In this document: piece by piece, positions 1 to 5,417 of the stretch
How the letters are laid out: every line of letters begins with the position of its first letter
Numbering within the stretch: position 1 is the stretch's first letter
Source: a virus
Virus record (IMG/VR): IMGVR_UViG_3300024518_005991
Span: 1 to 26,372 of that record
Strand: one strand, 5' to 3'
Length of the DNA stretch: 26,372 nucleotides
Translations under genes and position numbers: made by a program
The notes under the pieces: model-generated
Seen by the model: the letters and a program-made list of their open reading frames with translations, nothing else
Database searches by the model: none
What the model was told of the DNA's origin: nothing

Positions 1-360
1 GCTGTGCGCGATGCTGTGCGCGATGCTGTGGACGGCGCTGTGCGCGGCGCTGTGGTCGATGCTGTGCGCGATGCTGTGCGCGGCGCTGTGGGCGGCGCTG
101 TGGACGATGCTGTGGACGGCGCTGTGGACGGCGCTGTGCGCGGCGCTGTGGACGATGCTGTGGGCGGCGCTGTGGACGATGCTGTGCGCGGCACTGTGGT
201 CGATGCTGTGCGCGATGCTGTGCGCGATGCTGTGCGCGGCGCTGTGGACGGCGCTGTGGACGGCGCTGTGCGCGGCGCTGTGGACGGCGCTGTGCGCGAC
301 GCTGTGGACGGCGCTGTGGTCGGCGCTGTGGTCGGCGCTGTGGACGATGCTGTGGACAGG
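1..360 (+). repeat. 30 tandem copies of a 12-bp repeat
   Basis: Thirty consecutive 12-mers fit GCTGTG followed by a variable codon and GAT or GGC, with no indels. The first six bases are invariant except in copy 17, which begins ACTGTG. Codon 3 is CGC in 12 copies, GAC in 12, GTC in 4 and GGC in 2. Codon 4 is GGC in 17, GAT in 11, GAC in one and AGG in the last. No stop occurs in any of the frames I checked. Copies 4-7 and 16-20 share the same order of variants (RG, VD, RD, RG, with one extra RD in the second block), which points to duplication of multi-unit blocks. The window begins exactly inside the array, so the array may be longer. Confidence 0.97.
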
Positions 361-1056
361 TCCTGGTATTACCGTTTCGGCGGCTCTTGGTGGCTATCCT
401 GGCAAGCATACGCCGGTTTCTTTCGCGATATCTGTGGACTAGAGCTGTCTGGTGACATCTGGGAACGCGAGCGTGCGTACGCGAAGCCCCAGTCTGCCGG
501 TGGTTGGTGGTGGCCACACAAGCAATTCGTGATAGTTTCCGACAGGCCGTCAGAGATTCATCTGGAGCAAATCGCGCCGCGTGGCTGGGGCTCTCACCGC
601 CTGCACAAACGAGACGGGCCGGCGCTTGCCTACCGCGATGGCTGGGCGCTGCACTTCATCGAGGGCACGCGGGTCGACGCGCGCATTGTCCAGCAGCCCG
701 AAACCATTACATCTGCCGAAATAGGCCAAGAGCAGAACGCTGAGGTCAAGCGCATTTTAATGCAGCAGTACGGGCCCGGGTTGAGTGGCCCACGTGACGA
801 CGAGCATGACGGCACGTGGGAGTACCTGCGCGATTCGGGCTCCGAGTTGCTGGAGTTTGACGAGGGGGTTGGTGTGCTTGGATCAGCCCCGCGCATGCTG
901 GTTAGGCATGCAACGGGCGAACGCTATCTGGTCTGCACAGATGGTTCCACGCCCGGTATTTATGCGCTGCGGGTAGGGGAGGGTGTTAAGACCTGTGAAG
1001 AAGCATACGCGGCACTGACGGGGCTTTCTCAGGGCGATTGCATTGCCGAGTGCTAG
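1..1056 (+). CDS. DUF6745-like protein with N-terminal AVx(D/G) tetrapeptide repeats; 5' end missing
   Basis: The frame is open from the first base and ends at TAG 1054-1056, so the gene is cut by the left edge; a GTG at 4 is only one repeat codon among many. Codons 1-120 are 30 tetrapeptide repeats Ala-Val-(Arg/Asp/Val/Gly)-(Asp/Gly). The rest is an aromatic-rich globular part with the pattern I associate with DUF6745: SDRPSEIHLE (from about 538), RLHKRDGPALAYRDGW (from 598) and EQNAEVKRILMQQYG (about 727-774). From memory of that family, Val-Ala-Asp-rich repeats in front of the domain are common in its members. No function is established. The period of four suggests a helix with an Ala/Val stripe, but this is inference. 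It stands alone on the plus strand and converges on the minus cluster ending at 1075. Family call moderately sure; role unknown. Confidence 0.75.
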   Translation, partial: AVRDAVRDAVDGAVRGAVVDAVRDAVRGAVGGAVDDAVDGAVDGAVRGAVDDAVGGAVDDAVRGTVVDAVRDAVRDAVRGAVDGAVDGAVRGAVDGAVRDAVDGAVVGAVVGAVDDAVDRSWYYRFGGSWWLSWQAYAGFFRDICGLELSGDIWERERAYAKPQSAGGWWWPHKQFVIVSDRPSEIHLEQIAPRGWGSHRLHKRDGPALAYRDGWALHFIEGTRVDARIVQQPETITSAEIGQEQNAEVKRILMQQYGPGLSGPRDDEHDGTWEYLRDSGSELLEFDEGVGVLGSAPRMLVRHATGERYLVCTDGSTPGIYALRVGEGVKTCEEAYAALTGLSQGDCIAEC

Positions 1057-1545: not shown

Positions 1546-1796
1546 TTCGTTCTTCCCCCTGCACTAGACCCACCACGTGCCGCCTGGGCCAGCAGTATCC
1601 TATACCGCCTCATGGCTTCCATGTGGTCCAGCCCGCTGTTGTTCATCTGCGCGAGTATGTTCTCGTAAAACCCGACCTTGGGACTAAGGATTTGGAACGG
1701 CAGGCCGTGCTCCTTGCAGGCCGGGTGTTCGTCCGCCCAAGGGTGGATCGTACAACCCATCGGGCACACGCCAATCTGGTAGTCGCCACTAGACAA
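1542..1796 (-). CDS. Small Cys/His-rich protein (possible zinc binder), about 84 aa
   Basis: The residues CPMGCTIH, followed by H, C and H within about 16 residues (pattern C-x3-C-x2-H-x5-H-x2-C-x2-H), look like a metal site near the N-terminus. The remainder is helical with a Gly/Ser/Lys tail. No ATG precedes the motif. The start given is TTG 1794-1796, which overlaps the end of the sulfotransferase (stop TAG 1789-1791). A second TTG at 1815-1817 would add seven residues, and an internal ATG lies just inside the motif. None has a clear Shine-Dalgarno, so the start is uncertain. It sits between the sulfotransferase and the 68-aa protein, and the overlap suggests coupled translation. Metal binding is inference from residue spacing only. 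Confidence 0.55.
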   Translation of the reverse strand: MSSGDYQIGVCPMGCTIHPWADEHPACKEHGLPFQILSPKVGFYENILAQMNNSGLDHMEAMRRYRILLAQAARGGSSAGGRTK

Positions 1797-2661
1797 TCCC
1801 GTCCCCGTTCCACCCAAAGTTTGACTGATACCACCCCATCATAGGTCCATATTCAGGACTGGCAAAGAGCCCGGCCATGACTTCCTCCGGGATATGGTCT
1901 TTCCATTCGTGGACATCTGCCGGCTTCAGCGCCCGTGGCTCCCCGTCCTCGGTGCGGTGGGGATAGAGGCTCATGGCTGCTGAGTCCGGGTCTGTGGCTG
2001 TCTGCTCGATCGAGTCGAAGTCATGCTGGAACTCCGGTAGCTCGAGATGGGCCCGCGCCCGCTCCAGGTAGAGCTCCGGCAAGCAGCTCCAGATCTCGTA
2101 GCGCAGGAACAGCGGGATCTTCTTGGACTTGTCTTTCAGCATCATGGTGCGGATGCCCAGGATCGCGTTGCCGATCAGGTTCCCTGGCGCCAGCCAATAC
2201 GCCATCCGCTGGTCCACGCTCACGATCTCCGGCGGCACGATGTAGAGTTCGGGGTTCATCGAGTACCGCTTCTCGCAGCTCCCCATTACCCCGCGCAGGT
2301 CTCGCACCGCACACACCCACCGTGGCCGCGCGTAGTACTCCAGCATCTGCTGGGCGATATGGGGGAAGCCCCGGGACTTGTCTACCGTGTATTTCTCTTC
2401 GTGCTGGGAATACGAGCCCTCGATGGCCCGCCGCACGGTCTCGAGCCGCCGCTCCTTCTCTGCCAGCTGCCCTTGCTGGTGCCGCCCCTGGGCGGGCCAG
2501 CCGGAGAAGGTGGTGGCAAGCTGGGCCACGATCTGGGGCGTCTCGGACTCAGACATGGTGTGGGTGTCGGGATCCTGGGCAAGGATATCCACAAGCAGCG
2601 TGGAGCCGCTGCGGGGCATGCCGGTGACGCTGCGGTGTACTGTGGGTGCTTCCTCTGGCAT
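1789..2661 (-). CDS. Sulfotransferase family protein (PAPS-dependent type)
   Basis: At 290 aa this matches the usual length of the Sulfotransfer_3-like proteins seen in environmental phages. GMPRSGSTLL at residues 14-23 is the loop that binds the 5'-phosphosulfate of PAPS in sulfotransferases. VDKSRGF at 93-99 and AVRDLRGVMGS at 118-128 (Arg120, Ser128) correspond to the family's second conserved block and the 3'-phosphate site. The ATG at 2659-2661 has AGAGG about five bases upstream. The enzyme class moves sulfate from PAPS to a hydroxyl or amine; the acceptor here is unknown. It lies four genes after the fibre/spike in the same transcript direction, so modification of a virion protein or a host surface glycan is possible, but that is inference. 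No frameshift or missing key residue was noticed. Confidence 0.85.
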   Translation of the reverse strand: MPEEAPTVHRSVTGMPRSGSTLLVDILAQDPDTHTMSESETPQIVAQLATTFSGWPAQGRHQQGQLAEKERRLETVRRAIEGSYSQHEEKYTVDKSRGFPHIAQQMLEYYARPRWVCAVRDLRGVMGSCEKRYSMNPELYIVPPEIVSVDQRMAYWLAPGNLIGNAILGIRTMMLKDKSKKIPLFLRYEIWSCLPELYLERARAHLELPEFQHDFDSIEQTATDPDSAAMSLYPHRTEDGEPRALKPADVHEWKDHIPEEVMAGLFASPEYGPMMGWYQSNFGWNGDGIV

Positions 2662-2926: not shown

Positions 2927-3397
2927 TTACCCCGTCGTGGAGACAATCAGCACATGACACACCCATTGAATCGTCTTGGCGTTCTCGCCAGTGCCGTGGA
3001 ATGTGATGGCGTCATTGGTGTCATCTGCAATGCAGTTAAAGGCCCAGCCGCCCGTATCCTCGAAGTCGTCCTGCGCGTTACCCGTGTACCCGCCGGCAAA
3101 GGCAACGACAGTGGAGGCGTCCGTATCAATCAGCCCGTGCATCCGATAGCCGCCGCTTTCGCCGTCCGCGTCAGTGCGCCGGGCCACGCAGTTTGCGTGA
3201 AAGTAGTAAGTGGTGGAGGCTGCCAGGCCAATGCGCTGTGAGCCCGCGTCCCCGTCGATGAATAGCTCGGTCTGGGTATTGTTGTCGGTCTCGCAGGTGA
3301 GAACGAACTCTCTTACCTCGGCGTCGTGGTCTGCTGCGAAGTTGGGCCCGCGCAGCGTGCGGTTACCTCCCTGCAAGGTGTAGTCATCGGTCGGCAC
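2927..3397 (-). CDS. Small tail-fibre-associated protein, 156 aa, homologous to the spike C-terminus
   Basis: The protein consists almost wholly of a beta domain also found at the C-terminus of the neighbouring 655-aa spike. Shared landmarks are TQTELFIDG versus TETELFFTG, a YYFHANCVARRTD / WAYDVTVVGKSD strand, a DDTNDAITFHGTG versus NSTNDALQIWVTG block, and a final IQWVCHVLI versus IEWLAFVRL strand. The start is GTG 3395-3397, sharing one base with the TAG that ends the spike gene, so translation is probably coupled. It may be a second knob or a cap that sits on the fibre. The domain type occurs, as I recall, in tail-fibre proteins of marine and environmental phages; its exact function is not known to me. 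Confidence 0.7.
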   Translation of the reverse strand: MPTDDYTLQGGNRTLRGPNFAADHDAEVREFVLTCETDNNTQTELFIDGDAGSQRIGLAASTTYYFHANCVARRTDADGESGGYRMHGLIDTDASTVVAFAGGYTGNAQDDFEDTGGWAFNCIADDTNDAITFHGTGENAKTIQWVCHVLIVSTTG

Positions 3398-5364
3398 TAC
3401 GTATTGATCTCAGTTAGCCTGACAAATGCCAGCCACTCAATGGCTTCGGTGCCAATGCCGGTGACCCAGATTTGCAGGGCGTCGTTCGTGCTATTGGCAT
3501 CAACTCGACACAGGTAGCCAGCGGCATCTCTCAGCGTCTTGTCCGCGACCCCAGACCCGCCAGTAACGAAGTTGAGTGTGCCGGCGACGTTCTGTAGTGC
3601 GCCCTCAAAGCGGAAGTAGGCGATGTTGTCGCTGGTATCGGACTTGCCAACGACAGTAACGTCATACGCCCAGACCTCACCAGCAGCTATGGCCAGCCGA
3701 CCAGACGAGCCAGTGAAGAACAGCTCCGTCTCCGTGGTATCGGAAGTTGACGCCCGCAGCACATTCTGTGTCGTCTGCGCGTCTTCATCCGCCGAGAAGT
3801 TTCCCGCACTCTGGGCCAGGGTGCGGACGCGCCTATGTAGCTGCGTCCCGCCCGTCATCCAATGGTCGCCAGAACGGACCGTGCCGGGCACACCGTAGAA
3901 GTTGAAACGAAGCTCTGCACCCATGCCGATCGACTTGGGCATGTCGTTCGTGCCTTCGCCAAGCTGCATGGAGGAGACGCCGCCGTTGGCGATCACGCCG
4001 GCATTGATAGCCCTGCCAACCGCCATGCCACCATCGCTGTTCTGTACCAGTACCGATTGTCCATGCGACGCCATCCCAACGAGCAATGAGCCGCTGCTAC
4101 TCAGCACTTGGAAATATCCCGTGCTGGTGTTGACTCCCGCCTTTCCAACCGCCAAAGACCCCTGACAGCTATTGTTTATCTGAGCAGACCCGCGCCGCAC
4201 ATAGCCGAACATCCCACAGCCCTTGCCATCCACGTAGGCCGTGCTGTCGATGTTCCGGGTAATCCCGCAGATCGTCATGAGCGAGCCCTTGGCGGTGAGC
4301 CCCATCTCTGCTCTGAAGTTCTTTGGGTTCGAGGCCGGCGAGTCGGCATAGAACACCATCATGCAGCCCTGGGCCAGGTTCCTGATTTGGTGGTATCGAC
4401 TTGCGGCAGCATGGGCGTAGCCAACCATGGCAGAGCCCTTGGCGGGCGTTACAGACGAGCCCAGCAGCCCAATGATGTCCCCGCCTGCGTCTGCATCGAG
4501 TTGTGTCACCATGAGGTTCCCGGCCCCATGTGTTTGCGCAATGACCGACCCGACATCGGAGCACGTAAACGATCCGGCCACGAGCGACCCACGCGCGTAG
4601 TTGGCGAGGCTGGTGCCCTGGTTGATATTTGCACCATCAGCGTATACCACGGCCGCGTTGCCCTGCCCAAATGCGTAGAAGTCCGCGCCGCCAACCGCCC
4701 GGATAGCGGTCATTGCACCGCGCGACTCGGGCTGCACGACAGTGTTCGCCCCGGCCATGGACACGGCGTGTACCTGCCCACCGCTGCCCCCGTTGGCGCC
4801 GGTCAGGGTGAACTCTGCATACGCAGAAACATCGATCGCACAGACCTGTGCAAGCCCGCCAGAGATCGATATATCACCATCGTAGTTGTAGCCAGCGATC
4901 AGACTAGAGACCGCGCCTGCGGTTGATGTGGTTGTCTGGCCGTAAGCATATGCGCCGAGTGCCACGAGGCTGGAGGCGCCGGTCGAGCTAAGAACCAGAT
5001 TGCTCCCGTAACTTATGCCGCGCATGGTGGCGATGGCACCTACACCGCTGTTGGTGAGCGTTGACGTGTACCCTGCCGTCTTGATCCAGGAGGCGCCAGC
5101 GGTAATGGCCGCTTCTCCAGAACTCGCGACTGTGCCACCCGCGTAGTCCGTACCCCCATACGTGTATGTCGGCGCAATGGTGAGAGACTTGTTCGTGCCA
5201 GTAACTGCCGGCCTGAGCGCCCCCCTGTCCTGGATGATAACCCCGGCAAAGGTGTTGATCTTGTCCCAGGTGTTGGCATTGGTCCGAACATTGATGGGCA
5301 GCCAATCGCCACGGACGGGGGACTTGGGCTTCCAGAAGTTCTTGAAGAAGTCGGATTGGGGCAT
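3397..5364 (-). CDS. Tail fibre / tailspike-like protein, beta-helix type
   Basis: This 655-aa protein has a short N-terminal segment (MPQSDFFKNFWKPKSPVRGD). It is followed by about 400 residues of Gly/Ala/Ser-rich short repeats of the kind G-S-x-x-x-G-x-A (for example GSLVAGSFTCSDVGSVIAQ and GSAMVGYAHAA), typical of parallel beta-helical or trimeric fibre shafts. A conserved QLGEGTN...SGDHWMTGGTQLH junction follows, then a C-terminal beta domain shared with the next gene. The ATG at 5362-5364 is preceded by AAAGGCGG. A TTG at 5395-5397 would extend it by 11 unlikely residues. It is transcribed away from the terminase genes and is the best candidate for the receptor-binding protein, since the plus-strand fibre gene at 23650 is only an anchor. 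No catalytic depolymerase motif was recognised. Confidence 0.8.
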   Translation of the reverse strand: MPQSDFFKNFWKPKSPVRGDWLPINVRTNANTWDKINTFAGVIIQDRGALRPAVTGTNKSLTIAPTYTYGGTDYAGGTVASSGEAAITAGASWIKTAGYTSTLTNSGVGAIATMRGISYGSNLVLSSTGASSLVALGAYAYGQTTTSTAGAVSSLIAGYNYDGDISISGGLAQVCAIDVSAYAEFTLTGANGGSGGQVHAVSMAGANTVVQPESRGAMTAIRAVGGADFYAFGQGNAAVVYADGANINQGTSLANYARGSLVAGSFTCSDVGSVIAQTHGAGNLMVTQLDADAGGDIIGLLGSSVTPAKGSAMVGYAHAAASRYHQIRNLAQGCMMVFYADSPASNPKNFRAEMGLTAKGSLMTICGITRNIDSTAYVDGKGCGMFGYVRRGSAQINNSCQGSLAVGKAGVNTSTGYFQVLSSSGSLLVGMASHGQSVLVQNSDGGMAVGRAINAGVIANGGVSSMQLGEGTNDMPKSIGMGAELRFNFYGVPGTVRSGDHWMTGGTQLHRRVRTLAQSAGNFSADEDAQTTQNVLRASTSDTTETELFFTGSSGRLAIAAGEVWAYDVTVVGKSDTSDNIAYFRFEGALQNVAGTLNFVTGGSGVADKTLRDAAGYLCRVDANSTNDALQIWVTGIGTEAIEWLAFVRLTEINT

Positions 5365-5417
5365 GGGCCGCCTTTGGGCGCAGACTTGCGCAACCAACTA
5401 CCTCCAGGTAATGGGAA
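5365..5417. promoter_or_regulatory. Divergent intergenic region between spike and small terminase
   Basis: Only 53 bp separate the divergent starts at 5364 and 5418, so the two transcripts must begin here or inside the neighbouring genes. The segment contains an 8-bp palindrome TTGCGCAA at 5386-5393. I cannot define -10/-35 boxes or a phage RNA polymerase promoter. The regulatory role is inferred from the gene layout only. Confidence 0.3.

Follow-up and report, generated by a model that had tools for sequence, protein, structure and literature searches.

A tetrapeptide-coding minisatellite with two variable residues per unit in phage DUF6745 genes

Overall, an in-frame array of 12-bp units, each encoding four residues, was the usual state of phage genes for DUF6745 proteins, and the array is almost certainly real and general. 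Its best explanation, which has about an even chance of being right as a whole, is a coding minisatellite shuffled by recombination, in which diversifying selection acts on two residues of each unit and which may form an exposed variable binding surface. The window from which the analysis started is a complete IMG/VR record (26,372 bp) whose left end falls inside such an array (Table 1).

Table 1. Features of the window discussed in the text
Feature	Coordinates	Strand	Remarks
Gene for the array-bearing DUF6745 protein, 5'-truncated	1..1056	+	351 aa present; N-terminal domain off contig
Tetrapeptide array AV-x-(D/G)	1..360	+	29 complete 12-bp units and a degenerate 30th; cut by contig start
Folded region C-terminal to the array	361..1053	+	residues 201-250 of the window protein modelled by AlphaFold at a mean pLDDT of 90-95
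DUF6745 (PF20530) match	481..774	+	profile positions 33-123 only, of 206; C-terminal part divergent
Sulfotransferase-like gene	1789..2661	-	PF13469, 1.5e-9
Gly/Ala/Ser-rich protein	3397..5397	-	666 aa; no Pfam match

The array and its gene in the window and in related phages

Tandem Repeats Finder reported a 12-bp tandem array at 1-355/357 of the window with 29.6 copies and 0% indels, and a unit-by-unit reading showed that the unit following the last complete one degenerates to GCTGTGGACAGG (AVDR), in agreement with the indel-free AVx(D/G) repeats announced by the original prediction. As the contig begins within the array, 30 copies is a lower bound, and the N-terminus of the protein is missing together with its N-terminal domain. 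Among the window units, bases 2-6, 9 and 10 were invariant and base 1 deviated only in unit 17 (ACT). Codon 3 was CGC in 12 units, GAC in 11, GTC in 4 and GGC in 2, and codon 4 was GGC in 17, GAT in 11 and GAC in 1. With Asp encoded by GAT and Gly by GGC, base 12 was also polymorphic in the window, a slight departure from the other arrays. The partial repetition of variant order described earlier can be seen on inspection. No repeated block was longer than 3 units, however, a length that 46% of shuffles reached (p = 0.46), so that the order was no more repetitive than in shuffles and the block duplication proposed with it was not supported for this array. An exact search with 38 bases found no phage closely related to that of the window.

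The array is in frame with a DUF6745 domain (PF20530; Pfam 2.6e-23; 82.8 bits versus a cut-off of 27), confirming the family suspected from the sequence, and the gathering score of this profile was also passed by 41 of the 50 related records. About 70-130 aa precede the array in complete relatives, where the gene consists of a conserved N-terminal domain, the array and a C-terminal DUF6745 region. In the AlphaFold model of one such relative (L174), the N- and C-terminal domains were predicted confidently and the array as a low-confidence helix, with which the model of the window protein agreed (pLDDT of about 35-60 over the array in both). Given this low confidence, no binding surface could be seen in the array. 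Searches for a known fold, in which the domains were modelled as parts of longer proteins, returned no Foldseek match in the PDB at E<=0.001, and every VIA-align Z stayed below 5; the absence of a match does not prove a new fold. In a viral structure library, the only matches at E<=0.001 were other DUF6745 proteins or uncharacterised phage proteins. A literature search on DUF6745, STM4015 and tetrapeptide repeats returned nothing relevant, and since no mention of DUF6745 was found in the literature searched, the family appears undescribed.

Three other assignments of the array were rejected. The Gly-zipper_OmpA profile (PF13436) was passed over the array only (38.6 bits versus a cut-off of 27), but the maximal 19-residue Kyte-Doolittle mean was 1.33 in the window and exceeded 1.6 in 5 of 77 arrays, which is too low for a transmembrane glycine zipper, and the match was judged compositional. 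A single weak PADLOC match to a defence family (PDC-S29), on the array of a relative, looks compositional as well. G-quadruplexes were discarded after inspection of the sequences, where G runs occurred in QV, SV and QL units and none in AV units.

A search with the C-terminal domain recovered 43 viral loci, most of them with a period-4 array built from QVx(D/A), SVx(D/A), QLx(D/G), SLx(D/G/S) or AVx(D/G/V) units. The general unit across phages is [A/Q/S][V/L]-x-[D/G/A/S], in which the first dipeptide is a fixed scaffold and the last two residues vary. When AVx(D/G) repeats were searched for as an exact pattern, 48 other phage loci were recovered, 47 of which had DUF6745-gene sequence beside the array (the exception being L154). 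The combination in a phage had been called odd; arrays turned out to be present in most phage DUF6745 loci. The window fell within the AV clade of a C-terminal-domain tree, and repeat type followed this tree (21 changes versus about 49 in shuffles).

Actinobacterial chromosomes encode DUF6745 proteins (PF20530) with the same C-terminal domain and the same small partner gene (see last Section), yet, unlike the phage genes, nearly all those sampled are without an array. When 84,980 species genomes of bacteria and archaea were scanned, the best 80 loci, almost all of them actinobacterial, included a single array, located in a Singulisphaera metagenome bin (L056). A scan of genome contigs with the window domain alone gave no matches. 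The array-less chromosomal lineages were nested among array-bearing ones in the C-terminal-domain tree, and array-less relatives have a non-repetitive segment at the place of the array and are presumably functional. The absence of arrays from the chromosomal relatives sampled indicates that the core function does not need the array.

Additional repeats and neighbours were observed around a few copies. Plasmid copies of the DUF6745 gene (L006, L007, L010) adjoin genes of the STM4011-STM4015 families, and a Deinococcus copy possesses, in place of the array, leucine-rich-like repeats N-terminal to the DUF6745 domain. Phage proteins at two loci (L053:220-720 and L054:3860-4192) have LHREDGPA-type repeats resembling a single GPAxxYxDG unit inside DUF6745.

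Variation within units and along the arrays

The position of variation within the unit was surveyed in 70 arrays comprising 1,977 units; some of these arrays came from related phages or alleles, so that not all of them are independent. Every array was polymorphic at base 7, 65 were so at base 11 and 44 at base 8, while bases 1, 2, 3, 4, 5, 6, 9, 10 and 12 were polymorphic in 1, 1, 2, 0, 0, 3, 1, 4 and 2 arrays, respectively. Two codons per unit varied in nearly all arrays, so the initial description of units variable mainly at one codon understated the variation. The synonymous bases (3, 6, 9 and 12) were nearly fixed within each array but differed strongly between arrays, and the DNA of the scaffold changed with the type (CAGGTC, AGCGTC, CAGCTC or GCGGTG) while the amino-acid pattern was kept. 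The comparison of synonymous and replacement changes suggested with the original prediction gave a contrast, with homogenised repeats, synonymous sites included, alongside polymorphic replacement positions. Copies and recombination history are common to every base of a unit, so this contrast suggests either selection acting on the protein or site-directed mutation, and diversifying selection at the protein level on positions 3 and 4 is the likely cause.

Residue x was about 34% G, 28% W and 27% R in the QV, SV and QL types, and about 31% G, 31% R and 23% D in the AV type. Positions 3 and 4 assorted nearly independently, and the order of units was close to random, with little correlation between neighbouring units and a mild lack of identical neighbours; no code is evident in an order so nearly random. 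An excess of identical position-4 residues four units apart was noted in QV, SV and QL arrays (z about 3), and it persisted after removal of four arrays. A simple simulation suggested that duplication by itself produces more local repetition, unless units are often replaced; this is no more than a hint, since short-read assembly disfavours repeated blocks.

A random order with a stable composition is also what would be expected if the array were a spacer, either flexible or helical, or a condensate-forming segment of low complexity, in which order and length are free and selection keeps only the composition, namely a V/L scaffold combined with W/R/G or G/R/D mixtures and D/G/A. The low-confidence helix predicted for the array and the folded domains on both of its sides fit such a spacer too. 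However, a disordered linker would not usually show a strict indel-free four-residue phase or an almost invariant V/L, and the array-less relatives presumably function with a non-repetitive segment in its place. This alternative is considered unlikely, though worth keeping in mind.

Turnover of copy number and unit order

The ease of expansion and shrinkage anticipated for the array was confirmed in relatives with near-identical flanks. Prophage alleles of Mycobacterium abscessus had 46 (L004), 19 (L016), 62 (L019) and at least 21 units (L017, a minimum, since the contig cuts this array), in different orders. The upstream 330 bp were identical in L004, L016 and L019 (330/330), and 743-750 of 750 downstream bp were identical when L017 was included; a separate comparison of these alleles gave 99.8-100% identity over 600-bp flanks. 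Similarly, two Nocardia farcinica arrays, L014 (presumably strain IFM 10152, judging by its IMG number) and L183 (NCTC 11134), had 15 versus 38 units of mostly different types, with 618 of 620 downstream bp identical. Copy number and variant order were therefore not the same in all relatives, although the arrays of three metagenome contig pairs were identical over their overlap, which indicates that the array is not always in flux. Taken together, turnover of units by recombination is very probable.

The array ran to the contig end in 32 of 43 AV-type loci. As contigs often break at arrays, copy numbers from short reads are unreliable, and short-read assembly could distort some of the differences between alleles. 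Eight records had the locus in two pieces (L155/L162, L150/L151, L156/L163, L148/L157, L149/L160, L139/L176, L140/L164 and L168/L170), with the paired array pieces lying for the most part at the two contig ends, as though only the array had escaped assembly. These breaks would favour the view that differences in copy number and order are mostly artefacts of short-read assembly. Against it, the two N. farcinica arrays differ, many distinct arrays assembled right through, and the GD102 prophage project on M. abscessus had 300-base reads, with Nanopore reads in some strains (PMC8092301). This view is improbable, and artefacts are not the whole explanation.

Genomic neighbourhood and comparison with known systems

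A small protein with conserved His-containing motifs (phrog_27831) was encoded in 41 of the 50 phage records, in all 41 of them next to the array gene and on the same strand, either upstream or downstream. A profile built for this protein found it in 79 of the best 80 chromosomal loci, and no significant Pfam or NCBIfam match was obtained for it. It was absent from the window contig, where the missing partner gene may lie beyond the left end. By contrast, phrog_210 (DUF2303), found beside one copy, was rejected as a partner, being not conserved. An ERF annealase was present in 9 of the 50 records, always within about 6 kb of the array gene and on the same strand, and genes for a DnaB helicase, a ParB-like protein and a DUF669-like protein were nearby in single records, as was a RuvC-like gene in some records. 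In the window, the sulfotransferase-like gene follows the array gene but is encoded on the other strand, and the Gly/Ala/Ser-rich protein, which contains degenerate repeats, may be a tail-fibre-like beta-helix.

The presence of ERF, RuvC-like, helicase or ParB-like genes near some copies, together with the ready recombination of repeats, would be in line with an array acting mainly at the DNA level, as a recombination site, a replication signal or an unstable minisatellite, with the protein sequence secondary. This is hardly probable, as the reading frame is kept throughout the arrays, synonymous and replacement sites behave in opposite ways, and the scaffold DNA varies by type under a constant amino-acid pattern. 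The least probable alternative is a diversity-generating retroelement or similar targeted mutagenic system rewriting bases 7, 8 and 11, which would suit two to three variable bases per unit that are near-random and nearly independent between units, but no reverse transcriptase was detected in the 50 related records or in the window (51 records in all, many of them fragments), arginine was encoded by AGG or CGG and never by both within any of the 23 arrays with enough arginine codons, whereas random mutation at base 7 would have produced both, and position 11 mostly took two or three bases, unlike the outcome of random adenine mutagenesis.

Under the favoured explanation of a recombining minisatellite with selected residues, unequal exchange, annealing or conversion among the 12-bp units would add, remove and reshuffle units, and diversifying selection would keep positions 3 and 4 mixed. 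The array might then act as an exposed, multivalent binding surface for a changing target, such as a host factor, a nucleic acid or a competing element; a binding or recognition role of this kind is proposed tentatively. The array protein might also act with the small phrog_27831 protein, in some phages near recombination or replication genes. A more speculative and rather improbable extension is a modular phage recognition surface with one fixed and one variable dipeptide per recombination-reshuffled unit, with phrog_27831 completing a two-gene module for recognition or counter-defence.

Several known systems offer points of comparison. TAL effector repeats have 34 residues, with a constant scaffold and a variable residue pair that follows a one-to-one base code. 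The phage units likewise combine a constant scaffold with a variable residue pair, but they have four residues, with neither a code nor DNA binding in evidence. By analogy, and without homology, two eukaryotic cases evolve in the most similar way known. The HNWD NLR receptors of Podospora anserina carry WD40 repeats of high internal conservation, with a known fold and HET-C as ligand, and share with the phage arrays homogenisation by concerted evolution, length polymorphism, a few hypervariable codons per repeat under diversifying selection and difficult assembly (PMC12222747); the phage arrays differ in their four-residue units, their phage-borne location and the lack of a known fold or ligand. 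The zinc-finger minisatellite of the eukaryotic PRDM9 is also coding, with fast turnover and variation at specific codons, which in PRDM9 are the recognition codons of zinc fingers with known DNA contacts (PMC3890296).

For practical purposes, these observations are a warning that phage assemblies often break at array-bearing DUF6745 genes. For the family itself, the arrays would add a widespread phage family to the few coding minisatellites that pair fast copy-number turnover with diversifying selection at fixed positions, in this case with very short units and a partner gene that is conserved.
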